From Pseudomonas sp. 31-12 (GTDB lineage: Bacteria; Pseudomonadota; Gammaproteobacteria; Pseudomonadales; Pseudomonadaceae), in the NCBI RefSeq assembly GCF_003151075.1, contig NZ_CP029482.1, forward strand, positions 6,664,001-6,728,000: DNA of 64,000 nt, written 5' to 3'. Numbering within the stretch: the first letter of the stretch is position 1; every line of letters starts with the position of its first letter. Of this stretch, positions 3,163 to 26,833 are shown in pieces. Made by a program: the position numbers and the translations under genes. A model generated the notes under the pieces. The model made no database searches, was not told the origin of the DNA, and saw only the letters and a program-made list of their open reading frames with translations.

Positions 3163-3344
3163 TCCGCCCCGCCACCGTCTCGGCAACGTCCTACAAAGAT
3201 CACCACCGCCGTCCGATAGCGCCGCGAAGCCCAGGTTCCTAAGCTCATCCCCAGCTGAATATTCAGCACTGGGTTTGGCGACCTGGAAGACCCCGACGCA
3301 CCGCGACCACATTCGACTGAGGAATTTATTCCCATCACGAATTA

Positions 3345-3422
3345 TGGCGGCTATGCGTGGGAGACCTTCGGGTCTGCCGGTTCTCGGGTGTCACCGGTTC
3401 GCCAACCCGCGCATAGCTGCCA
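3345..3422 (+). ncRNA. Candidate structured RNA / 5' leader (three-way junction)
   Basis: A 17-bp outer stem pairs 3345-3361 with 3406-3422 (GGCGGCTATGCGTGGG against CCCGCGCATAGCTGCC, with two G-U wobbles and a closing T-A). Inside are AGACC-TTCG-GGTCT (3362-3375), a cUUCGg-type tetraloop hairpin, and a second arm CCGGT (3377-3381) with ACCGG (3393-3397). Wobbles in a long stem favour RNA over a protein-binding palindrome. It lies 60 nt before the BRO-N start on the same strand, and a CCCTTTTCGTTT tract follows the stem, so it could be a leader, an attenuator or a short sRNA. I do not recognise a named Rfam family. Confidence 0.5.
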
Positions 3423-3481
3423 CCCTTTTCGTTTGGCGACGATCAGAAGCAGTTTTCTTCACTCGACCCCGAGAATGCACC

Positions 3482-13753: not shown

Positions 13754-13836
13754 CATTTTGTCCAATGTGGTGTTATCCTTTTGCGGTACGGCGCGGGATT
13801 GCGCCGTTTGTTTTGCATCGAAGATTGGACAAAATG
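13754..13836. repeat. 13-bp inverted repeats around the recombinase start codon
   Basis: CATTTTGTCCAAT (13754-13766) and ATTGGACAAAATG (13824-13836) are perfect inverted copies enclosing 57 bp. The right copy contains the ATG of the recombinase gene. Further GGACAA units lie at 13731 and 13741, so at least four related sites cluster here. They could be recombinase-binding (invertible) sites, an autoregulatory operator, or an mRNA hairpin hiding the start. Confidence 0.6.
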
Positions 13837-14400
13837 ATCGAGCCCCGAAAACACCTGACGCAGATCGAAGTCGATCGATTGATTGCGGCGACCAAAGAGA
13901 GTCGCCACGAAATGCGTGATCGCTGTCTACTGCTGCTCATGTTCCGTCATGGCCTACGCGTCTCTGAAGCCTGTGGCATGACATTGGCGCAAGTTGACCT
14001 TGAGACTCGTGTTCTACACGTTTTTCGCTTGAAAAAAGGCCTTTCTACAACGCATCCGCTACGTACAGATGAACTGAAGTATATAAAAGCCTGGCTTCGG
14101 GTTAGGGCTCAAATGAAACCTGAAAATGATGCTTTTTTCATTTCAGAGAGACTGAATCCTTTGAATCGGCGTACCGCTTGGGATGCCATTCGTCGATATG
14201 GCGAGAAGGCTCATTTACCTCTGGCTACCCATCCGCACATGCTGCGCCACGCTTGCGGGTACGAACTGGCCAACCAAGGTGCAGATACACGGTTAATCCA
14301 GGACTATTTAGGGCACAAGAACATCCAGCACACCGTGCAATACACGGCAGCTAAACCAACAAGGTTTGATAGGTTGTGGCCAGCAGCGCCACGCCGCTGA
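13834..14400 (+). CDS. FimB/FimE-size tyrosine recombinase
   Basis: 188 aa from ATG 13834 (MIEPRKHLTQIEVDRLI); an in-frame ATG at 13765 would translate the repeat region and is less likely. It is a catalytic domain only: Arg42 in HGLRVSEACG, Lys in RLKKGL, HPHMLRHA (His135, Arg138), LGHKNIQHTVQYT (His161, Tyr170). The length and single-domain form match the fimbrial-switch recombinases FimB/FimE, which invert short DNA segments, and many similar proteins on Pseudomonas islands. Its start lies inside the inverted repeat described separately. The methyltransferase gene follows 81 bp downstream. Confidence 0.88.
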   Translation: MIEPRKHLTQIEVDRLIAATKESRHEMRDRCLLLLMFRHGLRVSEACGMTLAQVDLETRVLHVFRLKKGLSTTHPLRTDELKYIKAWLRVRAQMKPENDAFFISERLNPLNRRTAWDAIRRYGEKAHLPLATHPHMLRHACGYELANQGADTRLIQDYLGHKNIQHTVQYTAAKPTRFDRLWPAAPRR

Positions 14401-14481
14401 GCTGAACAGAAGATAACGGTGCGACCAGGGATTGCGACCCTGGCCACACCTGACCAATGTCTACTGAAAGGAGTAGAAGCA

Positions 14482-15813
14482 ATGGCTAATGAGTATGGTA
14501 TGACAATCGAAGCAAACAGCGAAATCTACGTAGGTACAGGCGGCAGCTCCATCGACACTCCTGTGCCCAAAAAAGCTCGTGGATCGCGGAAGAAAAAAAA
14601 GCCGCTGCGCACAATCGATTTGTTTTGTGGTGCAGGTGGAATCACCGAGGGCTTTAGACAAGCTGGTTATGTCAGCCTCTATGGCAACGATGTGATGCCA
14701 GAGGCCATCGAGACGTTTAAGCTCAATCATCCAGAAGCCATTGCAGACTGCCGGACTATCGAAGAGGTGGATCCAAGAGAGGTTAGAAATCTTCTCGGCC
14801 TGGAGCCTGGTGAGCTAGACGTTCTAGTCGGAGGCCCACCCTGCCAAGGTTTCTCGATTAACGCCCCAGAGCGTTTTCTCAGTGATCCCCGGAATGCTTT
14901 GTTCAGGCACTATGAGCGTTTCCTAGAAGAGTTCCTGCCCAAGGCTTTCGTATTCGAGAACGTTCCTGGCTTGCTATCTCTAGATGACGGAAAAGTGTTC
15001 CGTCAGATCATCGATATTTTTACCAATCTTGGATACCACGTAACGGCCAAGATTCTGTTCGCAGCTCATTACGGCGTTCCGCAAGAACGCTGGCGGCTAA
15101 TTCTTCTCGGCTCCCGCTTCACAGAAGTTCAGCATCCTGAACCTACACATTACGCAGTTGGCCGCGCCAATTTCCGTGGCGGTAGCACGATGACATTCCA
15201 GCTATCTGAGAGTGACCGTTCCCGCCTTAACCCATGGGTGAGCGTTAACGAAGCCATTGGCGATCTCCCACGCTTAGAGATGGGGGAAGGGGCTGAAATT
15301 GTCCAATATCAGGCAGCCGCTCACAGCGCCTACGCTCAAACAATGCGTAATGGTGCGCAAGAAACTTTTAACCACATTGCCGCCAAGCTTTCTAAGCAGA
15401 ATGCTGAGCGTATGAAGCATGTAAAGCCCGGTGGATCATGGCGTGATATCCCCCACGATCTTCTGCCTAAAGGTATGCAGCGCGCCCGCAAGTCTGATCA
15501 TACAAAACGTTATGGTCGACTCCATAAAGATGGTTTGTCTGGGACCATGTTGACCAAGTGCGACCCACACTGGGGAACAGTTTTTCTGCCAGATCAAGAC
15601 CGAACTCTGACAGTGCGCGAAGCAGCACGTTTCCAGTCTTTTCCTGACACCTATCGTTTTGTAGGTTCTCGCGTATCACAGTACGAGCAGGTCGGAAATG
15701 CAGTACCGGTGTTGATGGCAAAAGCCATTGCTGATCAACTGGTAAATCACCTGGCTGACCAAAAAGACATGGTTATTGAAGTAGTACAGGCGCAAGAAGA
15801 AATCTGCGCCTGA
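14482..15813 (+). CDS. DNA (cytosine-5) methyltransferase of a type II R-M system
   Basis: 443 aa. ATG 14482 is preferred over an upstream in-frame ATG because AAGGAG precedes it by 8 nt. All m5C motifs are in order: I DLFCGAGGITEGF (from residue 46), IV GGPPCQGFS with the catalytic Cys121, VI ENVPG, VIII QERWRLILLG, then a variable target-recognition region (about 250-350), IX REAARFQSFPDTYRF and X QVGNAVPVLMAKAIA. It transfers methyl groups from S-adenosylmethionine to the C5 of cytosine. It ends 5 bp from the convergent NotI-like nuclease gene, whose site it should protect. Confidence 0.95.
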   Translation: MANEYGMTIEANSEIYVGTGGSSIDTPVPKKARGSRKKKKPLRTIDLFCGAGGITEGFRQAGYVSLYGNDVMPEAIETFKLNHPEAIADCRTIEEVDPREVRNLLGLEPGELDVLVGGPPCQGFSINAPERFLSDPRNALFRHYERFLEEFLPKAFVFENVPGLLSLDDGKVFRQIIDIFTNLGYHVTAKILFAAHYGVPQERWRLILLGSRFTEVQHPEPTHYAVGRANFRGGSTMTFQLSESDRSRLNPWVSVNEAIGDLPRLEMGEGAEIVQYQAAAHSAYAQTMRNGAQETFNHIAAKLSKQNAERMKHVKPGGSWRDIPHDLLPKGMQRARKSDHTKRYGRLHKDGLSGTMLTKCDPHWGTVFLPDQDRTLTVREAARFQSFPDTYRFVGSRVSQYEQVGNAVPVLMAKAIADQLVNHLADQKDMVIEVVQAQEEICA

Positions 15814-15818
15814 CGGTC

Positions 15819-16853
15819 TTAATCCGACTCAGGTAAAGGTGCTTCGAAATCACCAAACGCAAGCAGGTCAGATCCACTGACCTGCTCTATTGGCACAGGC
15901 CAGACAAACTTATCACTGATCCGACCTTCAAAAGTCGAAAGGGGCACCGCCTTCCCACCTGTTAAACCTTCTACTGAGCGCTCAAGGGTCGTGTATCGGA
16001 CTTCGTCAGGCACAATTCGTGTACGGTTTTGGCCTTCGACTTCCTCGAATCGCACGACAAACCATGCGATATCAGCATTCGAGATGTCTTTTACGTTGTC
16101 CATTTCACCGATAGAGTCAAAGAAGGCGCGATCTACAACGACGGCCATCTTCTTCCCCCACCGCCGAAGCGTTGGAACTTTGATTTGGAGCTGAGGCATG
16201 AGACGTTTCGGCCCGCTACTTCGGTAATCTGGGCGACGACGCCCTGCTGGAAATACTACCCAATCTACCGCACTGTCGCTAAAAGCCTCGAACTCGCCTC
16301 GCATTGCGTCACCAGAGAAATATACCGCTTGAATTTCCAGCGCCGCCCACTCCATAGGCGCTCCTGGCGGTGTCTTCGTGCTAACAAGAACCATATCAAT
16401 TCGGCCAACGTCTTCACCGCCTTCATTGTCGGTTGTCGCGCCGGCCTCTAAAAAACCTACCTCAGCAACAAGTTTCGGGTCAGAGTCCCCGAGGATGGTT
16501 TCACCTACCCACTTAAAAATTTCTAGGTCTTCATGGAAGCGATTTGGGCACGTAGCCCTAAGATCGCCCTGTTTACCCTCAACAGGGACACCCATGGCCC
16601 GCCCAGTTCCTGGATGCGCTGCATATGAGTAGAGACGTAATGAGCAGACGCCTCCATCTTTTGAGCAAAGAGCATCTTGCTTGCGCGCTTGAAATGGGCA
16701 CAGCTGCTTGGCTCTAGCTTTCTTCGGTTTCAGTGTTTCAGCCGCGAGGAGCTGTCTTTCTGTACTCGATAGCTGGGTCAGGTTGTACCCATACCACTCT
16801 CCGATACCAAAGCGAGCTGTTTGATCTTTTAGTTTTCTAGGTAATTTGGCCAT
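15819..16853 (-). CDS. NotI-like type II restriction endonuclease
   Basis: 344 aa from ATG 16853 (MAKLPRKLKDQTARFGIGEWYG); a longer frame begins at 16910. The N-terminal region has four spaced cysteines (Cys52, 63, 70, 102, the last in RATCPNRFHED), as in NotI, whose structure has an iron bound by four cysteines. A PD-(D/E)xK-type core follows: GRIDMVLV (Asp153) and ALEIQAVYF (Glu173-x-Gln175). The Glu-x-Gln variant also agrees with my recollection of the NotI active site. Enzymes of this family cut GC-rich palindromes (NotI GCGGCCGC, EagI CGGCCG). Tail-to-tail with the m5C methyltransferase. The exact site cannot be read from sequence. Confidence 0.85.
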   Translation of the reverse strand: MAKLPRKLKDQTARFGIGEWYGYNLTQLSSTERQLLAAETLKPKKARAKQLCPFQARKQDALCSKDGGVCSLRLYSYAAHPGTGRAMGVPVEGKQGDLRATCPNRFHEDLEIFKWVGETILGDSDPKLVAEVGFLEAGATTDNEGGEDVGRIDMVLVSTKTPPGAPMEWAALEIQAVYFSGDAMRGEFEAFSDSAVDWVVFPAGRRRPDYRSSGPKRLMPQLQIKVPTLRRWGKKMAVVVDRAFFDSIGEMDNVKDISNADIAWFVVRFEEVEGQNRTRIVPDEVRYTTLERSVEGLTGGKAVPLSTFEGRISDKFVWPVPIEQVSGSDLLAFGDFEAPLPESD

Positions 16854-17315
16854 AGCGTACAAAGTTATCAGATAGACACATATCGGCCGAGAGCTTTGTA
16901 AAACGCTCAAGAACGTACGTCCAAGGCGGTACGAATCACTCCGCTTGTGAACTGAGGGAGAGGCACCTCGCTAGGGGCGCGGCGCGGGTGCATCTGTGCC
17001 TTCACCTTGTCGTCCTCTCGTAGGCGAACCAACTAGTGGTGATGGTAAGCATGCAGTGATCATCACGCACCATCGAACGCCTGGCCCAAAATTTAACCGC
17101 TGCGTCGGCATCCTCGACGGTTACTACTCCCTCATTAACGAGGAGAGTCAAGGTGGGCGGGCGACTCATGACCGGTGCGGACTCGACCGTTATGGAATTT
17201 GTGAAGCCTTGCAGCCATCAGATGGTATCGATAGGTCCCCAATATCGCCATACTCGTCAGCGCCTTGAGGGCAAGTCATACCTCATTTTGAACATAGGAA
17301 AGCAGGTCATACGGA
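16854..17315. other. Gap without a convincing gene
   Basis: About 460 bp between the nuclease start and the next gene. An open frame at 16996-17268 has no ribosome-binding site and no protein-like pattern. It should contain the promoters of the nuclease gene (leftward) and of the membrane/coiled-coil gene (rightward); none stands out. Confidence 0.4.
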
Positions 17316-18662
17316 ATGAAATTCCTTGACGATATATTGCAGTCAATCTCCGGAAACACGAAAACAAAGGTCGATGATCCTTTCATTGGCGCGTTCATAG
17401 GGTCATGGATTGTCTGTAATTGGAGTCACTTGGCAATACTAATATGGGGCGACGGGACCACTACAGAAAGGATTAACGCGCTCAGTAAATACATAAAAGA
17501 AACCGACGTAGTAGCGTTCAATACAATAATTGTCATCCCTTTATTAATGACGACTCTCTTTTTGTTCGCTTTCCCTTGGGTTTCATTATTGCTGAAATCG
17601 ATACAGAAATTTGCAAATGATCGACTACACCAGCAAGCAATATCAATTGAATTGAGCAAGACTAAGCAACAAGAAGCCTTGAATAGACAGAAGCTGCTTG
17701 CGGATCCAGACAAGAAATTTCTGGAGCAGAACGTCCAATTAGATATTGATCGCCGAAAAGAAATAACTGAACAGTTAAAGCTAAGAAGTGCAAAATTCAA
17801 AGAAAAAGCCGAAGCGGCAGCAGCTGTATCGGAAGCGGCGATAGCCGCAGCGACAGAAGCTAAAAGCCGAGCGAATCAAGCTCAATTAGAAGAAGAAAAA
17901 AAACAGCAGAATGCCACAATCGAAAGACAACGATTTACTGTGGCAAATGCTAGATTAAAGTCGGCACAGGCATCAAATCGTTTTCCCTCGTCGTATAGCT
18001 TCATGCTCGCTATCGAAGAAAGCCTGAAAGCAGACGGTATTCAGCTATCCCTGGCCGGACTAGGTGAGGTCGTAGCAACGATATTTGGCTATAAAGACTT
18101 CCAGTCGTTGATACTCGATGAAAATTTCAATAACGAAAAACTATCACAAGTTATATATATTTACTATGACCCTACAGATCTTGCCTCAAGCCTTGACAAT
18201 ATTGTACAAGCTGAAGGGTCAGACAACGAGGACTTAGGGTCCGACCTGCTATTCGACCATGTCATTTCAGCCTTCGAAAACTTAGAATATAAATTGATCA
18301 CCAAGGATCAAGTAGAAGAAGTGTGCAGAGACATCTGCGAAAAGCACAAGTATGACTTACTGCAAGGTGAGGAGCTATCAGGCCCCATCACAGAATCAGA
18401 TACTATATACGATGAAGTCGAGATTGGCGATTTAGACTCTATTACGTTTGATAATGGCTTAAAGGCTCTTTTTTCCGGTTCAGCAAGCGGCGATCATCGA
18501 AAGGAACACGATGTACCCGGTCGTGATATTGAGTTTAGCGTCGAAATTAAAAATACCTTGTTGCTCGGCACCAGAGCTTTGGGCGAGTTTGAGGTTGGTG
18601 AAGTGACGGGAAGCTTGGTTGACTATTATGATGAGGGTGAAGACGAAGCTGAAGCACATTAG
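17316..18662 (+). CDS. Membrane-anchored coiled-coil protein, unknown function
   Basis: 448 aa. Two transmembrane segments lie near the N-terminus (about 24-44, PFIGAFIGSWIVCNWSHLAIL, and 69-92, IIVIPLLMTTLFLFAFPWVSLLL). A long charged coiled coil follows (about 95-215, alanine/glutamate/lysine-rich). Then comes a globular part beginning FPSSYSFMLAIEESLKADG and containing GYKDFQSLIL, a pattern reminiscent of the glyoxalase-related domain common in orphan proteins; this similarity is weak. The C-terminus is very acidic. Its layout suits a membrane-tethered sensor or effector, and it sits between a restriction system and integrases, so a defence role is possible but unproven. Confidence 0.75.
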   Translation: MKFLDDILQSISGNTKTKVDDPFIGAFIGSWIVCNWSHLAILIWGDGTTTERINALSKYIKETDVVAFNTIIVIPLLMTTLFLFAFPWVSLLLKSIQKFANDRLHQQAISIELSKTKQQEALNRQKLLADPDKKFLEQNVQLDIDRRKEITEQLKLRSAKFKEKAEAAAAVSEAAIAAATEAKSRANQAQLEEEKKQQNATIERQRFTVANARLKSAQASNRFPSSYSFMLAIEESLKADGIQLSLAGLGEVVATIFGYKDFQSLILDENFNNEKLSQVIYIYYDPTDLASSLDNIVQAEGSDNEDLGSDLLFDHVISAFENLEYKLITKDQVEEVCRDICEKHKYDLLQGEELSGPITESDTIYDEVEIGDLDSITFDNGLKALFSGSASGDHRKEHDVPGRDIEFSVEIKNTLLLGTRALGEFEVGEVTGSLVDYYDEGEDEAEAH

Positions 18663-18875: not shown

Positions 18876-19134
18876 GTCCAGCCCACCACATTTCTTCAGG
18901 CAGAAGCAGACATTCGACTCGGTTCTGGTTTCGCCCGATAGTGAATGCTTGCAGCATGCGACTGCATACCTAAAAGCAATTCTGGCTTATTGCCAATACC
19001 GTATATCCCCATATGCCCCCTCTCTCATTTTCCGTGAACACCACGGCACGCGGGTCTGTAAGCTATTCAGGAGGCCCGTTGCAAACTCTCTCAGGATCGT
19101 CCGCGATTCGTCATCAATCCTGACAGAGAACCCT

Positions 19135-19815
19135 ATGACTACACCCATCCGCCGCGCAGCATCCCTTCGTCCAGGGCAATTCAAACACTTGATCCGCGTT
19201 GCATCTGTTACTGGCCGTCTGCCAGAGCGCGACGTGATGCTTTTATGGCTCACACACACCACTGGGATTCGCGTCACCGAACTGGCCTTGCTGAAGGTCG
19301 CAGACGTGCTGTACCCCAGCGGAGCTATTAAGTCCGAGGTGTATCTACGAGCAGACATCACCAAGGGCTGCCGACCCCGCAATGTATACCTGACACATGC
19401 TCGATGCCTTGCCGCCTTGGACGGCTGGATCGCGGTTCGCTTGCAACGCCGGTGGGGCCTGTCCGGCGCTGATGAATATCGGGGCCTGCGCCCAAGTTCA
19501 AAGCTGGTTACCACACACAAGGGCCAAGCGTTTGAACTTGCGTTTAAACATCGCCAATTGGACAGCGGTCCGGAGGTTTACCGTGCCTGTGATTCGCTCC
19601 AGCAGACGATCAGTCGGCTCTACCGGCAGGCCGGTATCAAGCAGGGTTCGTCACACAGTGGCAGGCGATCTCTGGCGGCAAAGGTGCTGGCTGCGACCGG
19701 CGACGTGGAGACGGTACAGACCATCCTCGGTCATGCCTGCCTCGATCACAGCAAGCCGTATCTAACTGTTGACATCGAGGTTATCCGTCGTGCTTTCGAG
19801 CTTGCACTGGCATAG
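19135..19815 (+). CDS. Short tyrosine integrase (catalytic domain only)
   Basis: 226 aa from ATG 19135; the reading frame is open further upstream but without a credible start. It shows Arg46 in HTTGIRVTELALLK, SHSGRRSLAAKVL in the HxxR position (His-Ser-Gly-Arg), GHACLDHSKPYL with the second His and the Tyr. There is no N-terminal core-binding domain. Such short integrases are frequent in Pseudomonas islands beside small cargo genes. It may serve the adjacent gene array (19.9-26.3 kb) or be a relic of another insertion. The dispersed repeat precedes it. Confidence 0.85.
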   Translation: MTTPIRRAASLRPGQFKHLIRVASVTGRLPERDVMLLWLTHTTGIRVTELALLKVADVLYPSGAIKSEVYLRADITKGCRPRNVYLTHARCLAALDGWIAVRLQRRWGLSGADEYRGLRPSSKLVTTHKGQAFELAFKHRQLDSGPEVYRACDSLQQTISRLYRQAGIKQGSSHSGRRSLAAKVLAATGDVETVQTILGHACLDHSKPYLTVDIEVIRRAFELALA

Positions 19816-19909
19816 TGATATCGGTAACTCTTTCCGCTAGTCAGCATTGATATTGAAATGTCCGTCCAGGGGTGAGGTTTTTGCCCCCGAGAACTTGAGG
19901 AAATCAACA

Positions 19910-20215
19910 ATGGCTAGGCTCACACTGACCGATTTTGACGAATGGCTCGATGGCGCTGTGCAGACGGACGTAGAGGACGTATACGCCCTCCATGAAGCCG
20001 TTGACGGTGAAACAGAGTTCGCTCAATACAAAGCCGAGCGTGCACCAAATGGACAGCTCTTGGTCTCGTATGGCGACGATAGCCCTTGGTTGAGGCTGTC
20101 CACGGAGGAAGCTAAGCAGGGTTTTCTTCGTCGTCTTGGCGGTCGTTATGTTGGGGAAGGTTGTATGGACATCGGTGCGTGGTATGTCATGCACATGGGA
20201 TTAGCGTCCGATTAA
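19910..20215 (+). CDS. Small acidic protein, unknown
   Basis: 101 aa, ATG 19910 after CTTGAGGAAAT. Acidic N-terminus (LTDFDEWLDGAVQTDVEDVYALHEAVDGETEF), ending in DIGAWYVMHMGLASD. No domain recognised. It lies 11 bp upstream of the PD-(D/E)xK-like protein gene, so the two are probably co-transcribed. A small acidic protein before a nuclease-like one recalls toxin-antitoxin or immunity pairs. A short hairpin GGGG-TGAGGTTTTTG-CCCC lies about 30 bp before the start. Confidence 0.6.
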   Translation: MARLTLTDFDEWLDGAVQTDVEDVYALHEAVDGETEFAQYKAERAPNGQLLVSYGDDSPWLRLSTEEAKQGFLRRLGGRYVGEGCMDIGAWYVMHMGLASD

Positions 20216-20226
20216 AGGAAATCCGC

Positions 20227-20697
20227 ATGGAGGACGCCGATGAGGTGTACCAGATCCTTCGAGACACCAAGGTTTTGGCTCGCCGTTATTACCAACTCAC
20301 TCGCAAACCGCTGGGTGTGACTGGGGAAATCGCAGAGTACGAGGCAGCTCGGCACCTCAACGTCGAGTTGGAACTGGCTAGGCAAGCTGGGTACGACGCG
20401 ACAGAAGTGAGAGATGGGCTGAAAGTCAGAATTCAAATCAAGGGGCGGTATTTCACCAGCCCACGAATGCGAAGCGGTCGAGTGGGATCAATCGATTTAA
20501 GGCAACCCTTCGATACAGTTTTACTGGTTCTTCTCGATGCGGATTACAACGCTTTCCAGATTTTTGAAGCGGATCGATCTGCGGTTGAGGCGTTACTGAC
20601 AAGGCCTGGGTCAAAGGCTCGAAACGAACGTGGCTCAGTCGGTATCAGTCAATTCAAAGCGATCAGCAGACTGCGCTGGGCGCGGTCTGAATTATAG
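20227..20697 (+). CDS. PD-(D/E)xK nuclease-like protein (DUF6998 type)
   Basis: 156 aa from ATG 20227 (MEDADEVYQIL). The pattern GEIAEYEAARHLNVEL followed by GYDATEVRDGLKVRIQIKGR fits the restriction-nuclease fold: a helix with conserved Glu and Ala, then a hairpin ending in Q-x-K-G-R. LRQPFDTVLLVLLDADYNAFQIFE completes the alpha/beta core. DUF6998 proteins look like this, as far as I recall. Likely a DNA-acting protein or a degenerate nuclease; partner of the 101-aa gene upstream. No activity is established. Confidence 0.65.
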   Translation: MEDADEVYQILRDTKVLARRYYQLTRKPLGVTGEIAEYEAARHLNVELELARQAGYDATEVRDGLKVRIQIKGRYFTSPRMRSGRVGSIDLRQPFDTVLLVLLDADYNAFQIFEADRSAVEALLTRPGSKARNERGSVGISQFKAISRLRWARSEL

Positions 20698-20791
20698 GAA
20701 ATGTCGCTCCACCAACAAGCCCGCCGCCGTGCGGGCGTTGTCAGGAGGAACAGGGCACTTTAGGCCCTCATGAACGAGCAGGAAAAACCTG
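20698..20791 (+). promoter_or_regulatory. Two-hairpin leader, copy A (before the metalloprotease)
   Basis: GCCCGC/GCGGGC stem at 20719-20736 and AGGGC/GCCCT stem at 20752-20768, then GAGCAGGAAAAACC and the start. A GGAAATGTC tract directly follows the upstream stop. Same architecture as the leaders at 23192, 23604 and 24949. Confidence 0.55.
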
Positions 20792-21793
20792 ATGGAAAAC
20801 TTCATGGAGATTAACGACGCCCGGACGATACCTGTAAGCGAGTATCTCGATAGCGTCACCGACCCTTTGCGGCGCGCAGCTATAGCCTCTGTATTTGATC
20901 AAGCACGTTCAGCATTGGAACGCATGCGCGTAAGGTTTTCTGTGTACTTACCGGTTCCAGAGATTTTTGTGCTCACAACAGTTCAAATCAAGGCTGAGGC
21001 CAATCCGCTTGGCCTTATTGTGGTCAGCCAGGGCATTATTGATCACTGCCTCGATACGGCCTTAGCATCATCGAATGTCATAGAAGGGGATGAGGACCGT
21101 CAGGACGGTTTGCCAGATCTATTTCCTCAGATAGGCCTCACATGGGTGTTGGCGCACGAATACACTCATTTGTTCCGCGCACATAATGAGGTCCAAATCG
21201 AACTTGGATCCCAGGACCATGTGCTACGCGCCTTCGAGCATGATGCCGACCTATGCGCTGCGGCAGCTGTATACCGCGCAGTTCAGCAATGGCTCCCAGG
21301 CATGGAGGACATCGATATTCGTCGCTATGTCACTCATGCGCTGTTCTGGATCATTAGAACGTTTCCGAATACGAACGACGGCGCAGGAATCCATCCTTCA
21401 TTCTCTGAGCGGTTCTTTCAGATCCTGCTCAAGCTGACCACCATGCAGGCCCTAGCAGGCGACGTCTTGGATCTAGATGTAAAGCTACCAGCCACTGCTA
21501 AGCGCGGGGATGCATTACGCGACGTCGCAATAGCTTGCGAGACCGCGTATCAGGCCAAGTTCCCTGGTACTCAAAATAATTTCTTCATGCAGTGGCACGA
21601 ATACATCAAAAGCTATGGCCATATAGCCATTATTAACGAATGGATAATGGTGAGCCCATTTGTTGAAAAGCACTCACATACCACGGCTGATATGCAGCGC
21701 CACGTCTCGGCTGTCCCAATGACTATGAGCGACATAGCTCGCCTGGAAAAGGCCGAGCGTAAGCGTCAACGAAAAGCTCAGGCGAGATCATGA
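20792..21793 (+). CDS. HExxH zinc-metalloprotease-like protein
   Basis: 333 aa. His122-Glu-Tyr-Thr-His126 (LAHEYTHLFRAH) is a zinc-protease motif, and FEHDADLCAAAA (Glu149-x-x-x-Asp153) stands where M48-type gluzincins have their ExxxD third ligand. No transmembrane segments, unlike M48 membrane proteases, so it is probably soluble. A serine- and histidine-containing SFSERFFQILLK lies further on. The C-terminus is strongly basic (RLEKAERKRQRKAQARS). The substrate is unknown. It follows a two-hairpin leader. Confidence 0.7.
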   Translation: MENFMEINDARTIPVSEYLDSVTDPLRRAAIASVFDQARSALERMRVRFSVYLPVPEIFVLTTVQIKAEANPLGLIVVSQGIIDHCLDTALASSNVIEGDEDRQDGLPDLFPQIGLTWVLAHEYTHLFRAHNEVQIELGSQDHVLRAFEHDADLCAAAAVYRAVQQWLPGMEDIDIRRYVTHALFWIIRTFPNTNDGAGIHPSFSERFFQILLKLTTMQALAGDVLDLDVKLPATAKRGDALRDVAIACETAYQAKFPGTQNNFFMQWHEYIKSYGHIAIINEWIMVSPFVEKHSHTTADMQRHVSAVPMTMSDIARLEKAERKRQRKAQARS

Positions 21794-21895
21794 ACGCAGT
21801 AGCCGTTTTGACCCTGCGAACTGCCGCGTACCCCCGGAGCGACTGTGAGGCTTGCAAGGGCACCGGCAAACGCAGATCGGTATAGGAAAAGGATC

Positions 21896-22246
21896 ATGAA
21901 CATTGAGACTATGGCTGCTACCGTCGCGAAATGGGCCAGCTCGGAGCCGCTAATTCGAAAGGCGTATCTCTTCGGCAGTCGAGTTCGTGGCGCGCATAAG
22001 CCAAGCAGCGATCTGGATGTCGCGGTCGAGATTTTCACCTTGCAGGGAGATACCAATCCATTTACTACCTGGACCTGTGAAGCGCAGCGCCTCAAGGCCT
22101 CGATAGCCGGAATTGTTCCTGTGATCGTCGATCTTGATTGGTATGGAGGTGAGGTGGAGACGCCCCGCATCCATCAGGCTTTAGGGCAGTCAAGTGTCGT
22201 GGTCTATGACGTTGGAAATTCCACCTCAACTATCCCGACCATCTGA
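21896..22246 (+). CDS. MntA-like nucleotidyltransferase domain protein
   Basis: 116 aa, ATG 21896 after GGAAAAGGATC. The minimal nucleotidyltransferase signature is clear: LFGSRVRGAHKPSSDLDVAVEI (Gly27-Ser28, Asp39-x-Asp41), with a third acidic residue in PVIVDLDWYG. Single-domain proteins of this sort (MntA) normally AMPylate and neutralise an adjacent HEPN RNase toxin. No HEPN gene is adjacent, so it is an orphan or acts on something else. Confidence 0.8.
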   Translation: MNIETMAATVAKWASSEPLIRKAYLFGSRVRGAHKPSSDLDVAVEIFTLQGDTNPFTTWTCEAQRLKASIAGIVPVIVDLDWYGGEVETPRIHQALGQSSVVVYDVGNSTSTIPTI

Positions 22247-22262
22247 TCCAGGAAGTTCAGTC

Positions 22263-22583
22263 ATGAAGGTGCGGCGAAGTCTGTATGCAGCATTTCTGCT
22301 CTGGCCAGTCGGAGCGGGGATGCTTTTTGCCGGCCTTGTGCCGTTTGTGTTTGGTGAAAGTGGGCCTACACGGCTGTTGTCCTTGGTTTTTATCATCATA
22401 GGGATGTCATTCAACGGGCTCTGGGCGTTCTACATCGACCGGAGTGGCATGGCGCAGCGTGTACACGATTTTTTGGGGCTTACCCAAAACCCGTTCACCG
22501 GTCGGTATGGCGCCACCCAAAAAGAGATAGAGGCGGATGCTCGGCGTGTTCGGGATTCAGCGAGTGACAAGAAACAAGAATGA
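22263..22583 (+). CDS. Small two-helix membrane protein
   Basis: 106 aa from ATG 22263. Two transmembrane segments: about 8-30 (AAFLLWPVGAGMLFAGLVPFVF) and 38-58 (LLSLVFIIIGMSFNGLWAFYI). A charged cytoplasmic tail follows (TQKEIEADARRVRDSASDKK). It starts 16 bp after the nucleotidyltransferase stop. No family recognised. Confidence 0.6.
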   Translation: MKVRRSLYAAFLLWPVGAGMLFAGLVPFVFGESGPTRLLSLVFIIIGMSFNGLWAFYIDRSGMAQRVHDFLGLTQNPFTGRYGATQKEIEADARRVRDSASDKKQE

Positions 22584-22641
22584 CCGGCTAGTAGCACGCG
22601 TTGCCGTCAACTATATCCGTCTCAGTCATAGGAAAATCACG

Positions 22642-22917
22642 ATGAACAACGCTGAAAAATGGGTCATTCAAAACACCCATGGGCAACTGCTACAGAGTTT
22701 CGCAATTGCCCCTGAGAAGATCCGTATCGACTGGTATCGGCCAGATGCACCCGGCAAAACCAAGGCAGGCGAGAAAGGTCCGCTTAACTTTCTCGCTGAA
22801 TCTAAAGCGCAAGTTCTGCTAATGGCTCTTGTGTCCCAGGTTCCGACAGAATTTGCAGGGGCAAAGGTCATGACACTGGCCCAGGCACTCAGCCCGGTCA
22901 GCACCCTCACCAGTTAA
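22642..22917 (+). CDS. Small hypothetical protein
   Basis: 91 aa, ATG 22642 after CATAGGAAAATCACG. Begins MNNAEKWVIQNTHGQLLQSF; no domain recognised. Followed by the palindrome-like GGAAAGGATCC tract that also follows other genes of this array. Confidence 0.55.
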   Translation: MNNAEKWVIQNTHGQLLQSFAIAPEKIRIDWYRPDAPGKTKAGEKGPLNFLAESKAQVLLMALVSQVPTEFAGAKVMTLAQALSPVSTLTS

Positions 22918-22973
22918 CGGAAAGGATCCGCCGCTTTATCGTCTTCCCAAATCAATACAAAGGAGCAGCACAG

Positions 22974-23192
22974 ATGAAAACCGCCATGCTTAAAACCGCG
23001 CTGATCGACCTGGCAAACAAGGAACTGAGGGAGCATCCGTGCTATCTGGAGGGCATGCAAATTGAAGATGCTCGTATGGATAAGCACCTCCTGGTCATGT
23101 CCTCAAACGCAGTACTGATGCCGGGTGTTGATTTGAATGCCCTGAACGATTTCACGATAGCGTTTTGCAACAAATACACACTGATCGGTTAA
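22974..23192 (+). CDS. Small hypothetical protein
   Basis: 72 aa, ATG 22974 with AAAGGAGCAGCACAG upstream, a good ribosome-binding site. Begins MKTAMLKTALIDLANKELRE; no domain recognised. Its stop codon overlaps the palindrome ACGGGAATTCCCGT. Confidence 0.6.
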   Translation: MKTAMLKTALIDLANKELREHPCYLEGMQIEDARMDKHLLVMSSNAVLMPGVDLNALNDFTIAFCNKYTLIG

Positions 23193-23273
23193 CGGGAATT
23201 CCCGTCCATACACCATAAACCTCGCCGTCAAACGCGGGGTTGGATCAGTAGAAGGACGCTAATTTTCGCGTCC
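23192..23273 (+). promoter_or_regulatory. Two-hairpin leader, copy C
   Basis: Palindrome ACGGGAATTCCCGT (23192-23205), stem ACCTCGC/GCGGGGT (23219-23240, one G-U pair) and stem GGACGC/GCGTCC (23254-23273), then AAGGA and the start. Stem pairs differ from other copies but stay paired. Confidence 0.6.
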
Positions 23274-23297
23274 GGGAAAGTGAAGGAATACCTCCTC

Positions 23298-23597
23298 ATG
23301 ACATCTGTCGTCAGAAATGAAGTCGCTGCAATAGTCGAGCAGCTCCTTATCGACATCACTGCTACTGTCCGTCCAGTTTCAGCTCCTAACGCGATCATGT
23401 TGGATGGGGCTCTGGTAGAAATCGGCAAGTTGCTATTAGACCCCGCAATGCAAGCGCAAGCCGCGCCTGTGTCGCAAATGTGGCGTTTGCTGATGGGGCT
23501 CCATATTGCAGGAGCTTTGACAGAGGAAGAACTCTATGGCTTTTCTGGCGATTTTCGGGATTGCTGCCTGCGGCTGTATCCAATTAATGAAGGCTGA
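23298..23597 (+). CDS. Small hypothetical protein
   Basis: 99 aa from ATG 23298 (AAGGA 10 nt upstream; GTG 23280 is an in-frame alternative). Helical protein (VVRNEVAAIVEQLLIDITATV ... EELYGFSGDFRDCC), no domain recognised. Lies between two copies of the conserved leader. Confidence 0.55.
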   Translation: MTSVVRNEVAAIVEQLLIDITATVRPVSAPNAIMLDGALVEIGKLLLDPAMQAQAAPVSQMWRLLMGLHIAGALTEEELYGFSGDFRDCCLRLYPINEG

Positions 23598-23603
23598 TAG
23601 TTG

Positions 23604-23676
23604 ACGGAAATTCCCGTAGCACCACAGCCCCGCCAGTCGGGGCTAAGCCCGTAGAAGAGGGACGATTTTCGTTCCC
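23604..23676 (+). promoter_or_regulatory. Two-hairpin leader, copy D
   Basis: Near-palindrome ACGGAAATTCCCGT (23604-23617), stem AGCCCC/GGGGCT (23626-23644), the shared AAGCCCGTAGAAG string, and a stem starting GGGACGA (23659-23676), then GAGCAGGAAAAAAT and a GTG start. Confidence 0.6.
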
Positions 23677-23696
23677 AGGATCGAGCAGGAAAAAAT

Positions 23697-24242
23697 GTGG
23701 AACTGACAAACGCTGCGCGAGCGGTCACTGATATCGCCTACTCGGTCATATGCGAAATGCTCGGGCCTGGGTTGGACAATCTGACAAATGCCAAAATCGA
23801 ACTGAAGCATAAGCCGAATGAAGGTAAGTCGCTAATCGAAGTGCGTTGCCAACAGGATGCGGAGAGGGAAGGGAAAACCCTCGTTCTCAGGCTCCATTTC
23901 CTTCACGACGCCAGACAGATGCAAATCCCGAATATTTTGATGCCGGAGACCATGACACATCAGCGTCTCGGGAAGAGGTTAATCGGGGCGTTGTACCGAG
24001 TTGCAGCCGCTAACGATTACCTGCTGCTGGTCGTCGATATGGTCCCATCTTTTTATGATCGTTTGTTATTGCGAGGGGCTACGCCGGTCGATGAGGAAAC
24101 GGTCCTGATCACCGCGAACACGGATCTGGAAGGCGATGTCGGAAGCCCAAAAATCACTGCCGGAGAGGATGACGAACACTTCGATATCTTCGCTTGGATG
24201 AAAGGTGCAGCGAACAACACGACGGGCAACAAGGCCGAATAA
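23697..24242 (+). CDS. GNAT-like protein, probable
   Basis: 181 aa with a GTG start at 23697 (AGCAGGA upstream; the overlapping ATG at 23695 is in a frame that stops at once). The central part fits the N-acetyltransferase fold: LVLRLHFLHD strand, then HQRLGKRLIGALYRVAAAND (the acetyl-CoA loop position), LLLVVDMV and FYDRLLLRGATPV, resembling the FYERLGF ending of GNAT enzymes. The Q/R-x-x-G-x-G/A loop is imperfect, so catalysis is uncertain. Acidic C-terminal tail. Preceded by leader copy D. Confidence 0.55.
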   Translation: MELTNAARAVTDIAYSVICEMLGPGLDNLTNAKIELKHKPNEGKSLIEVRCQQDAEREGKTLVLRLHFLHDARQMQIPNILMPETMTHQRLGKRLIGALYRVAAANDYLLLVVDMVPSFYDRLLLRGATPVDEETVLITANTDLEGDVGSPKITAGEDDEHFDIFAWMKGAANNTTGNKAE

Positions 24243-24314
24243 GTAGGAAATTATTATTGCTAAAGGGTTGGAGTTTGCGACTAAGGAAGAAGCTGGCGGG
24301 CGGGGAGCGAGATT

Positions 24315-24494
24315 GTGTCTAGCCTGAAGTCTTCGCACCATGAAATGAGAAGCTTGTTCCGAGATCTAACTTTTTCTGAAGAAGATAATTTCATTGATGA
24401 GTTCATCGAAAAAGTTGAGCGACGTCTCGGTAAAAAAATTGTTGGTGGGGTTCGTGCTTTTATCGAGAAGGAAATTCGCGAACAATACGAATAG
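24315..24494 (+). CDS. Very small ORF (59 aa)
   Basis: GTG 24315 with GGGGAG seven nt upstream opens a 59-codon frame, VSSLKSSHHEMRSLFRDLTF onward, rich in charged helical residues (EFIEKVERRLGKKIV, AFIEKEIREQYE) and ending at TAG 24492-24494. Protein-like composition and a good ribosome-binding site favour it over the longer overlapping open frame in another phase. The 260 bp after it hold no clear gene. Confidence 0.45.
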   Translation: MSSLKSSHHEMRSLFRDLTFSEEDNFIDEFIEKVERRLGKKIVGGVRAFIEKEIREQYE

Positions 24495-24754
24495 CGCCGC
24501 GTGGCTTCAAGAGCGGGCTGCGTTCGGGCCGAAACTGCCCGTTTTCGTGCAACAGCTCCAAAGTAAAAGAAAAATCGGCTACCGCGCTTATAGCTTGGTG
24601 GCTGCTGTTAACAAGGGCGACAAGTCACCTTGGCCACCACCAGCTCTATGTACAGCGGAAAAACGTACCAGGTACATCCAAGCCCCGGCCTAGAAACTGG
24701 GCCGAAGACGTAAAGGGCCCCCCACTTTTGCGTCAGCAAACGAAGGATAAACGC

Positions 24755-24949
24755 ATGTCTAAATGGAAGTCATTTCTGCCCTTGGTGATCATTTTTCTGG
24801 TCGGAGTAGGTTCGTATAATGTCGCTGACTCGCTAAGAAGGGAGTTCCGACCAGATAGCATGGCCGTAGGCTGCGCGATCCTTGCTGCGGTTTTCTTCAT
24901 CTACAAAGTATGGTCTGGGCGTCCGACTGCCAAGCAGTCCGAAGGTTGA
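24755..24949 (+). CDS. Small two-helix membrane protein
   Basis: 64 aa from ATG 24755 (AAGGATAAACGC upstream). Two hydrophobic segments, SFLPLVIIFLVGVGSYNV and MAVGCAILAAVFFIYKVW, separated by a short charged loop. No family recognised. Its stop is followed by leader copy F. Confidence 0.6.
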   Translation: MSKWKSFLPLVIIFLVGVGSYNVADSLRREFRPDSMAVGCAILAAVFFIYKVWSGRPTAKQSEG

Positions 24950-25024
24950 GGAAACTTCCCGTCAAGGAACACTACAGCCCCTTGATTGGGGCTAAGCCCG
25001 TAAGAGGCACCGGGAAGGCCGGTG
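24949..25024 (+). promoter_or_regulatory. Two-hairpin leader, copy F
   Basis: AGGAAACTTCCCGT (24949-24962), stem AGCCCC/GGGGCT (24976-24993), AAGCCCGTAAGAG, and stem CACCGG/CCGGTG (25008-25024), then AAGGAA and the exported-protein start. Confidence 0.6.
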
Positions 25025-25045
25025 GACATGAAGGAAAATGAAAGC

Positions 25046-25489
25046 ATGAAAGCTCGTACCATTATCGCCACCTCCGCGTTCGCCATGCTGATGACAGCGC
25101 CGGTGTTTGCGGCTTCGCCAAGCAACGTTTTTCTCTCCGGTACGGTGTTCAAAGGCAATGAGGTAATCACTACTTTTGCCACCCCAATCGTGCTCGGCGG
25201 CACATTACCGGTGAAGGACCAAGACTCTAATGTTGTTGATGGGATCAACACTGTACGGCTCGCATTAACTCCAGAGTTGTCCACCGAAAACCGTGTGACG
25301 GTATCCATCGTGGCAAATTGGAGTGCGGGTGCTCCATCGAAGTCGGTGGCTGGAGGAATGCTTAACGAGAAGGTTGAATTGGCTCAAGGAGAATCCAAGA
25401 CCATTCCTTTTGGTGACTGCGGATATGCAGATGACAAGAAATCCAGCTGTAATTACAAACTGGTTTTAAGTGCAAGCTTGCAACCTTAG
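25046..25489 (+). CDS. Exported protein, unknown
   Basis: 147 aa from ATG 25046, chosen because AAGGAA lies 10 nt upstream and the product then opens with a classical signal peptide (MKARTIIATSAFAMLMTAPV, cleavage after VFA-A). The mature part looks beta-rich (FLSGTVFKGNEVITTFATPI, RLALTPELSTENRVTVSIVA) and has two cysteines near the end (FGDCGYADDKKSSCNYKL), probably a disulfide. Periplasmic or secreted. No family recognised. Confidence 0.65.
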   Translation: MKARTIIATSAFAMLMTAPVFAASPSNVFLSGTVFKGNEVITTFATPIVLGGTLPVKDQDSNVVDGINTVRLALTPELSTENRVTVSIVANWSAGAPSKSVAGGMLNEKVELAQGESKTIPFGDCGYADDKKSSCNYKLVLSASLQP

Positions 25490-25544
25490 CGGAAAACTCG
25501 GCTCAGGTAGGAAGCACTAAAACGTTCATGGAGTGTAGAAAGAG

Positions 25545-26198
25545 TTGAATATTACGGAATGGGCTTCGCTTCTGGCTGTCGGAGGCGTATTAGCAATTGG
25601 TGGATTTTGGGTAGTCAACACCGTCGGTGACGCCATAGACCTGACAATACGAGAGCGACGTTTCCACAAAGACCTTCTAAAGGCGATTAAGCACAGTCAA
25701 CCCTCTTGGCAAGGGGTCTGCGCTATTGCAGCGATCCACGGTATTCCAAAAAAAAATGCAATCAGAATAGTCAGGGTTTTGCGAAATGAAGTGGTCGTGG
25801 GTCGGGACAATGGAAGCGCGTTGAAACTTCACAGTAAGCTGCTCGATGAGTACATTGCTGATTATGAGGCAGAGGAACCTTTTGAAGGTTTGCCAAGTAA
25901 CACTCGTTCATCACTTGAGCGTCTACGTAAGGATTTGGGATCAAGTACGGATGCGCTGCATTCGGTTACAGATCATTTCAGAGAATTACTCGAATTTCAC
26001 AATACGAAAAATCGTAGACAACGTTTTTATACGTTCGGTGGTTTTTTGGTCGGTGTCGCGGGTTTTGTTTATGGGGTCTTTATTTCTGTTTATCCGTTTT
26101 CGCAACCTGTGGAACCGTCCACGGCTTTAAATGAGCTAAGGCCTTATGCAGCACCTCAAGCTCCGAGCTTGCAGCCGCCCTCCCATAGGAACGAATGA
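25545..26198 (+). CDS. Membrane protein, unknown
   Basis: 217 aa from a TTG at 25545; the nearby ATG 25528 stops after six codons. One transmembrane helix at the N-terminus (ASLLAVGGVLAIGGFWVVN) and one at about 165-190 (FYTFGGFLVGVAGFVYGVFI) enclose a soluble middle with WQGVCAIAAIHGIPKKNAIR, which looks like a small winged or helix-turn-helix fold. No family recognised. Confidence 0.6.
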   Translation: MNITEWASLLAVGGVLAIGGFWVVNTVGDAIDLTIRERRFHKDLLKAIKHSQPSWQGVCAIAAIHGIPKKNAIRIVRVLRNEVVVGRDNGSALKLHSKLLDEYIADYEAEEPFEGLPSNTRSSLERLRKDLGSSTDALHSVTDHFRELLEFHNTKNRRQRFYTFGGFLVGVAGFVYGVFISVYPFSQPVEPSTALNELRPYAAPQAPSLQPPSHRNE

Positions 26199-26833
26199 CA
26201 CAAAAGTAGCGATCTTTTAACGGAAAATCCGCCCTGGTACATTTCAAGCCTCGCCGTCGAACGCGGGGCTATGGGCTGCATCGGAAAGCGTTCATAGCCA
26301 AATCGAGATGGCCAGGGACAGTCATTGAGCGCTTTACCATTGCAGCTACGACAAGAAGGAAAAGCCGCCGGACCAATACACCTGTCTTTTCAGAGGCTAG
26401 CGGTACTGGTGTCAGGCACTGATATATATGCGTTGGAAGCTGGCCGCTAGGCAATCCATTCAAGCACTCCTTCCGTGTGATTACCTGATCGTAGTGAGAT
26501 GCGACCCTACTCGCTAGCATGAATGACTGCTTCTGGCCGATTCTTGCCTGCCATGAGAGCAGAAAACGGCCAACCCGTGTCTTATCCACTCACGTGACCG
26601 AAACGATGTACTTCGGGAGAATGATCCATGGGTGTGTATGACTCTGCACCTTGGAGACATGATGGATTATTCTAAAAAGGTGCTCCTTGCCCCGGCGATA
26701 CCGGAAATTCATCATCGGGGGCGCTGTGGGTGTTGGTATGCGTGCGGGGTTCAATCCCATCATCGTCATAAGCCTTGAGCTAGGCTGATGTGGTCACTAC
26801 TGAATTTGCCAATCACCCTCAAGAAGCTCATGC
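26199..26833. other. Gene-poor stretch with leader copy G and a dispersed repeat
   Basis: After the stop at 26198 comes a degenerate leader: CGGAAAATCCG at 26221, stem AGCCTCGC/GCGGGGCT (26247-26270), second hairpin unclear. No gene follows it. A dispersed repeat is at 26523-26575. The rest shows no convincing ORF and looks like decayed DNA. Confidence 0.5.
26523..26575. repeat. Dispersed Pseudomonas repeat, copy 2
   Basis: ATGACTGCTTCTGGCCGATT ... GCAGAAAACGGCCAACCCG. It keeps the CTTCTGGCCG arm; the right arm has diverged after CGGCCA. Confidence 0.65.

Follow-up and report, generated by a model that had tools for sequence, protein, structure and literature searches.

A gene-cassette array with GGAAA joints behind a minimal tyrosine recombinase in Pseudomonas sp. 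31-12, probably integron-like in its working

The 64,000-nt stretch of Pseudomonas sp. 31-12 analysed here (NZ_CP029482.1, 6,664,001-6,728,000, forward strand; hereafter the window, to whose positions all coordinates without a locus number refer) carries at 19.03-26.36 kb an array headed by the gene of a 226-residue tyrosine recombinase, which is followed by some 12-13 small co-oriented genes. At most joints of this array the motif (A)GGAAA-N-C stands directly after the stop codon. From comparison of sequences we consider it quite probable that the region is a gene-cassette array working like an integron without being one, in which the units would be moved by the recombinase and the two-hairpin leaders in front of several genes would act as RNA. 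The first-pass annotation of this DNA had seen here unrelated small genes held together by a shared leader. The genes do behave as cassettes, but the leader does not define the array: many cassettes lack it, and the common denominator is the GGAAA joint together with the adjacent recombinase.

Joints were counted in gene tables typed by hand from annotation listings, with a few array genes omitted, and were compared with 60 control joints chosen by hand from 13 loci. For gaps of 6-200 nt, GGAAA was found in 92 of 131 array joints vs. none of the 60 control joints (Fisher p 2.5e-23), and the reverse motif in three of the 131. When overlap with the stop codon was counted as well (gaps of 3-200 nt, one locus, L006, being added to the set), 107 of 137 joints had the motif, with the consensus (A)GGAAA-N-C. 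A start codon follows within 12 nt in 85 of these 107 joints, and in 60 of the 85 at a distance of 5-7 nt, so that in leaderless joints GGAAA would double as the Shine-Dalgarno sequence of the next gene. In leader joints it lies some 80-100 nt ahead of the start codon. Downstream of the recombinase in 38 loci, GGAAA followed by A or T was counted 366 times in the direction of the genes vs. 142 times on the opposite strand; the upstream counts are 167 and 191.

All-vs-all alignment of the loci showed short similar segments in differing surroundings, with ends that often coincide with GGAAA. The ends were counted for alignments with an identity of 88% or more and a length of up to 2500 nt within hand-delimited arrays, near-duplicates being merged. 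Both sequences have GGAA within 10 nt at 36 of 57 right ends and at 18 of 48 left ends, vs. 9.6% for random interior positions. Pseudomonas viridiflava (L008) matches the window at 99% on either side of exactly one missing unit of 1188 nt, which extends from the first leader copy (20697-20785) to the GGAAA joint at 21885-21889; the joint reads TATAGGAAATGGATC in L008, TATAGGAAATGTCGC at the left and TATAGGAAAAGGATC at the right end of the unit in the window. A second present/absent unit, of ~1160 nt, distinguishes L053 from L051 (88-93% identity). These two are the array units among 32 present/absent pairs listed, most of which are deletions within recombinase copies or insertions elsewhere. 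The blocks shared at joints are shorter than ten bases. Moreover, a unit of ~540 nt in L003, L044, L045 and L046 has four different sequences between GGAAA and the start codon, indicative of an exchange point in the few bases after GGAAA and of a GGAAA that the preceding unit carries along at its 3′ end.

Cassettes of the window recur in other neighbourhoods at 75-99% identity, and the homology often stops at GGAAA. Cassette 3 (20792-21793) is found in L071 (90%) between GGAAA joints and without the leader that it has in the window, and cassette 4 (21896-22246) in L065 (93%) in other surroundings; cassette 9 (23697-24242) and cassette 8 (23280-23597) occur without leader in L048 (83%) and in plasmid pQBR55 (L006, 81%). 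These results bear on the undescribed cis-regulatory RNA that the first-pass annotation had proposed, taken here as an RNA family in a static operon without cassette mobility. Such an operon agrees with the covariation and strand asymmetry of the leaders and with their copies in other genomes, yet we regard it as very improbable in view of the exact presence or absence of units, the single units in other surroundings and the GGAAA shared by leaderless joints. The 1188-nt unit contradicts the static part of that reading; its RNA part is retained in the explanation that we prefer.

The recombinase gene (19135-19815, + strand) was given a start codon inferred from relatives, the frame being open from further upstream (288-residue frame); on the longer frame Pfam Phage_integrase matches at 4.9e-11. 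The catalytic set of tyrosine recombinases (R, K, H-x-x-R, H, Y) is present as R46, K77, H174, R177, H200 and Y209, all six within the 226-residue protein and invariant in 40 relatives. Profile matches are confined to the C-terminal parts of Xer models, and as judged from its sequence the protein appears to be a catalytic domain only, without an N-terminal domain. PMC8138268 describes 'simple' tyrosine recombinases as having two domains, core-binding and catalytic. The closest curated protein models are XerA, XerC and XerD (50.4, 50.1 and 45.4 bits vs. cut-offs of 220, 335 and 330), the integron-integrase model TIGR02249 gave 30.5 bits vs. a cut-off of 265, and two invertase models were weakly matched by 5 and 7 of 40 family members. 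All Foldseek matches other than tyrosine recombinases had E above 1.

On its left the recombinase module begins with TTTTCCGTGAACACC (19028-19042, - strand), which starts with an inverted GGAAAA. An edge of the TTTCCGTGAA type, with unrelated DNA to its left, was found at 23 of 42 recombinase loci scanned; at recombinase loci the edge begins with inverted GGAAA, and two hairpins lie between it and the recombinase start. This left edge may be a fixed end of the element. Between L018 and L023, ~450 bp are present or absent at the TTTTCCGTGA edge of the module, as if the inverted site had recombined too. In two loci (L007:13400-15032 and L056:6780-8870) a larger integrase and a small gene stand just upstream of the small recombinase; the two larger integrases are 29% identical over their aligned part, and a partner is possible.

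Relatives of the recombinase were found by tblastn in 509 plasmid records when the 288-residue frame was the query and in 486 when the 226-residue protein was, mostly at identities under 60%. Among the 8000 candidates scored, 898 proteins matched at E<=1e-10. In genome samples the recombinase was found in 37 of 398 members of the genus, many of its copies being incomplete or disrupted, and in 4 of 398 members of the phylum (own genome counted in both). In five of the first six plasmid regions opened, co-oriented small genes, for the most part hypothetical, stand immediately behind an annotated recombinase gene; the sixth, pQBR55, still has the array, but its recombinase carries an internal deletion. 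Three of these six arrays open with a toxin-antitoxin pair. In Rms163, 43 co-oriented small genes stand behind the recombinase within the fetched stretch, which is a lower bound for the array size. Arrays of a similar kind stand behind more distant relatives (identity from 66% down to 35%) on plasmids of Aeromonas, Burkholderia glumae, Azonexus, Rhodoferax and Vibrio campbellii, and recombinase-headed arrays of this sort also occur on Pseudomonas plasmids. On Pseudomonas chromosomes, the branch at ~35% identity has a clear array in four of eight loci (L062, L063, L066, L067).

Rms163 also carries ~20 small minus-strand genes with two leader matches on that strand (L053:1-6224), probably a second array. 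Annotated anti-CRISPR genes lie ~10 kb from the array in L045 (20172-20551), and ArdR antirestriction genes stand within arrays at L048:16980-17231 and L050:14963-15214, a hint of counter-defence cargo.

The leader had been reported in the window at five places, and all five exist, with GGAAA or GGGAA blocks at 20697, 23194, 23606, 24950 and 26222; a sixth copy at ~24657-24757 (E 3.6e-5) had been overlooked. The stems quoted for them are present: ACCTCGC/GCGGGGT and GGACGC/GCGTCC in the 23194 copy, GCCTCGC/GCGGGGC in the 26222 copy and CACCGG/CCGGTG in the 24950 copy. The supposedly shared AAGCCCGTAGAAG was found in the 23606 copy only, the 24950 copy reading AAGCCCGTAAGAG. The copy at 20697 is there but atypical, and the covariance model does not pick it up at E<=1. 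In the copy at 26222, hairpin 1 is leader-like, but the remainder matches another element in L014 and L015 (90-91% over 91 nt), and no open reading frame of at least 42 codons begins just behind it on that strand, where a gene start had been placed.

Covariation between the copies was borne out by a larger set. A first alignment (A2) gave no pairs with RNAalifold because the stems were misaligned, and a trimmed alignment (A4) was used, its structure read by eye: a good second stem was present in 52 of the 69 leaders of high confidence, and 49 of these 52 were aligned, three outliers being left out. Over the 15 pairs of A4, 79.6% of cells pair (70.0% in shuffled alignments), double changes affect 12 pairs (8.0) and 81 cells (30.6), and the covariation score is 0.312 (0.152 shuffled; 0.037 to 0.130 for slid structures). 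Further pair types number 31 vs. 27.2 shuffled, a value reached by 25 of 500 shuffles; on four of the five measures the leaders exceed all 500. When 126 candidates, false ones included, were aligned without regard to pairing, excess pairing appeared at several variable positions. G-U pairs outnumber A-C mismatches in stem 1 (32 vs. 6) and in stem 2 (20 vs. 10), which indicates that the coding strand folds and favours RNA. The pairing-free alignment and the stem counts both required an upstream GGAAA-like block, so that the presence of the block in those sets is no result. Folded singly, the six window copies are mildly better than shuffles (z -0.84 to -2.98). A hairpin-anchor-hairpin descriptor with an upstream GGRAA fits the gene strand behind the recombinase at 52 places, vs. 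7 for the opposite strand there and 8 and 7 for the two strands upstream; without GGRAA the same descriptor is unspecific (166 vs. 111, 155 and 129).

The leader covariance model gave 150 matches at E<=1 across the 69 sources or loci searched, the 49 training rows included, and in the window it matches at 23207, 23616, 24671, 26236 (E 0.018) and 24966 (E 0.68). Further copies thus exist in other Pseudomonas genomes and plasmids; the first-pass annotation would have been refuted by a lack of both copies and covariation, and the results went the other way. At E<=0.01 the model has matches in 37 of the 199 Pseudomonas genomes sampled, the own genome among them. A strong extra match in the own genome, at 4258258, lies outside any array; around it are one joint-like motif in 16 kb of that strand and no recombinase match. 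No match at E<=1 was obtained in L056-L061, which include the Burkholderia, Azonexus, Vibrio, Aeromonas and Rhodoferax arrays (L056, L057, L058, L060, L061). No Rfam 15 family matches the leader, and the window from 18900 to 26500 has no Rfam match at E<=1. For some of the leaders that have a GAAA-type block at their 3′ end, the gene behind occurs elsewhere without leader, cut at that block.

By these measures the leader is a covarying structured element of the coding strand; it is best seen as part of a cassette, in some cases as a mini-cassette of its own, and would likely act in translation of the gene behind it. Common control of the genes through the leader, as first proposed, is not supported by these results. 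We also weighed whether the leader might be the recombination site itself, folded like the attC sites of integrons, with GGAAA merely its edge. Covarying structure with little sequence conservation is what attC sites have, and some left breakpoints do fall in hairpin 1 or at the bases between the hairpins. Leaderless units, however, end at GGAAA too, the arrays of Burkholderia, Azonexus, Vibrio, Aeromonas and Rhodoferax have no leader model match, and attC sites recombine as folded bottom strand, whereas the stem 1 asymmetry points to the coding strand. On these three grounds we disfavour the leader as the site and hold it to be improbable in that role.

Several observations weigh against recombinase-driven cassettes. 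About 30% of the counted array joints lack GGAAA, and the tables behind the counts, array and control, were hand-typed and hand-chosen. Shared segments do not stop at GGAA in both sequences at 21 of the 57 right and 30 of the 48 left ends, and several left ends fall in leader hairpin 1, between the hairpins or at the leader 3′ end. The leader rows were partly chosen for pairing, which inflates their pairing percentages, and a GAAA-type block closes the 3′ end in only 26 of the 69 high-confidence leaders. The recombinase is disrupted in many of its copies, and some arrays are without one nearby; the other four of the eight loci of the ~35% branch show no clear array pattern, and an Acinetobacter relative (29% identity) heads no array in the region opened. 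Recombination at the joints is something we infer from its footprints, which are observed; the reaction itself never was.

Part of this would be explained if GGAAA were merely the Shine-Dalgarno sequence of packed small genes, with units exchanged by homologous or illegitimate recombination at short repeats and the recombinase a bystander. The 60 of 85 close starts with GGAAA 5-7 nt ahead, the arrays without nearby recombinase and the nearly one third of joints without the motif speak for this. The control joints, however, have no GGAAA at all, in leader joints the motif stands far from the start, and the recombinase-array link persists across beta- and gammaproteobacteria. The shared blocks are also too short to suit it well, as blocks under ten bases are short for RecA. 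Taken together, we consider a mere Shine-Dalgarno origin unlikely.

Among known systems, the familiar platform for the capture of single genes as cassettes is the integron. Here, as there, a tyrosine recombinase heads and adjoins an array of mostly unknown small genes, each bounded by one common site; units recur singly in other arrays, and arrays without intact recombinase occur. The recombinase of the array differs from integron integrases in falling far under their cut-off, in its apparent lack of the N-terminal domain and in being co-oriented with the cassettes. The site differs as well: attC has the core pattern RYYYAAC ... GTTRRRY at cassette ends, whereas the joint here is (A)GGAAA-N-C and can double as a ribosome-binding site. 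A simple pattern scan, not an attC model, showed no enrichment of attC-like cores (downstream 14 and 16 for the two strands vs. 12 and 12 upstream), and 7 of 233 AGGAAA sites lie within 15 nt of GTTRRRY. With the IntI integrase score and the attC scan both negative, the array is not a member of the integron family.

With Xer/dif modules the array shares XerA, XerC and XerD as its nearest curated models, but the scores are far under the cut-offs and the catalytic part alone matches. FimB/FimE-type recombinases have ~200 residues and no N-terminal core-binding domain, and in this the array recombinase appears to resemble them, as its family does in the weak invertase-model matches; it goes with gene arrays, however, and no invertible switch was seen here. 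Like the structured RNAs of Rfam, the leader has a covarying intergenic structure on the coding strand with compensatory stem changes, as in a structured cis-acting RNA, but it matches none of the families.

Integron-like elements (ILEs) at rulB and GInt islands are also Pseudomonas elements with tyrosine recombinases and variable cargo. In the descriptions available to us they have three recombinases and carry the cargo as a block, and a per-gene repeated joint does not figure there. No ginABCD operon with three integrases was found at the window locus in a Phage_integrase scan, which is not a gin-specific model: one of five open reading frames scanned at 13765-18662 matched (13765-14400), and the gene heading the array stands alone. 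A known element, be it an integron, a rulB-type ILE or a GInt, would account for a variable array of genes that adjoins a tyrosine recombinase. It is scarcely credible given the integrase score, the unenriched attC-like cores and the different head of the array; ILE and GInt were ruled out by these partial descriptions together with gene content.

We therefore return to cassettes moved by the recombinase. A unit would be a small gene, or sometimes a small non-coding element, ending just past the stop codon in (A)GGAAA-N-C. Exchange within the few bases that follow GGAAA would add, remove and reorder units, with boundaries known from comparison and a reaction deduced from them. The likely agent is the 226-residue recombinase, given its association with such arrays down to ~35% protein identity. 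GGAAA in leaderless joints would also serve as Shine-Dalgarno sequence. The leader would be a structured coding-strand element on many Pseudomonas-type cassettes, in some cases separable from its gene; its most likely function, proposed with low confidence, is that of an intercistronic cis-acting RNA which provides the cassette with a translation start of its own or shields it from the message upstream.

More broadly, we lean towards a second, integron-independent cassette platform in beta- and gammaproteobacteria, mostly plasmid-borne, in which a minimal, catalytic-domain recombinase would rearrange small genes as well as non-coding RNA mini-cassettes through a site of ~8 bp that doubles as ribosome-binding site of the next gene. 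If so, each inserted gene would be translated at once. No description of GGAAA-bounded cassettes was met in the parts seen of the open-licence PubMed Central literature (including PMC4542609, PMC5385486, PMC4989453, PMC5424326 and PMC8138268). To judge by that open-licence literature, the array type appears to be new. Such an integron counterpart, on another recombinase family and with a much simpler site, would change the view of how plasmid accessory genes are assembled. It would explain the long runs of small hypothetical genes on pA506, pQBR55 and Rms163, and would allow genomes to be tested for the transfer of genes one at a time other than by integrons. With the leader comes a structured RNA family, outside Rfam 15, that moves with such cassettes.

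The cassettes and joints of the window all lie on the + strand. Behind the recombinase, a GGAAA joint (19899-19903) precedes cassette 1 (19910-20215, 101 residues, no Pfam match), which L008, L022 and L019 have in common with the window up to the next GGAAA (20217-20221, supported by sequence and by comparison with other loci). Cassette 2 (20227-20697) is DUF6998-like (27.5 bits vs. a cut-off of 27, on a longer frame). The atypical first leader copy has GGAAA at either end and precedes cassette 3, whose 333-residue product had been called a protease: the HExxH motif is there, but no Pfam match at E<=0.01. Cassette 4 encodes a nucleotidyltransferase (Polbeta 6.2e-8), and cassette 5 (22263-22583, 106 residues) is preceded by GGAAG instead of GGAAA. 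After the joint at 22631-22635 comes cassette 6 (22642-22917, 91 residues, no Pfam match). At the next joint (22919-22923) the window and L008 diverge. Cassette 7 (22974-23192, 72 residues) is weakly DUF2498-like (24.5 bits vs. 25) and occurs at 87% in L012.

Leader copy 2 (23194-23278; second GGAAA at 23275; model match 23207-23275, E 1.7e-7) precedes cassette 8 (105 residues). Leader copy 3 (23606-23692; second GGAAA at 23688), matched at E 1.2e-8 with the copy itself in the training set, precedes cassette 9, a 181-residue protein labelled GNAT-like in the first-pass annotation, for which no Pfam match at E<=0.01 was found. A joint at 24246-24250 leads to cassette 10 (24315-24494, 59 residues, weakly DUF2789-like, under the cut-off). 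Leader copy 4 (24657-24757; model match 24671-24737) stands before cassette 11 (24758-24949, 63 residues, no Pfam match), which is found at 75% in L014 and ends there at GGAAA. Leader copy 5 (24950-25037; second GGAAA at 25033) has a weak model match, with the stems present in its fold, and precedes cassette 12 (25046-25489, ~147 residues, no Pfam match), signal-peptide-like at the N-terminus by eye. Cassette 13 (25545-26198, 217 residues, no Pfam match) follows the joint at 25491-25495. The chimeric leader copy 6 (26222-26363) holds the last GGAAA joint noted in the array.

Three non-coding repeats accompany the arrays. One, of ~138 nt, folds strongly (z -5.60), is bounded by GGAAA and forms a non-coding mobile unit in three loci, twice in L008 (L006:18737-18873, L053:17385-17522, L008 ~17783 and ~15538). 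A second family, 73-76% alike, comprises window 24561-24661 (+ strand, 75% alike in L002 and L006), L002 ~6655, L006 ~20543 and members in L021, L037 and L071. A third element, 90-91% alike, is found at window 26273-26363, where it is joined to leader hairpin 1, at L014 ~17273 and at L015 ~14744. Elsewhere in the window, a C5 DNA methylase adjoins a NotI-like endonuclease on the opposite strand (14419-16910), with the FimB-like recombinase at 13765 nearby, and a C4 antisense RNA lies at 3340-3427 (Rfam RF01695, 83.1 bits).

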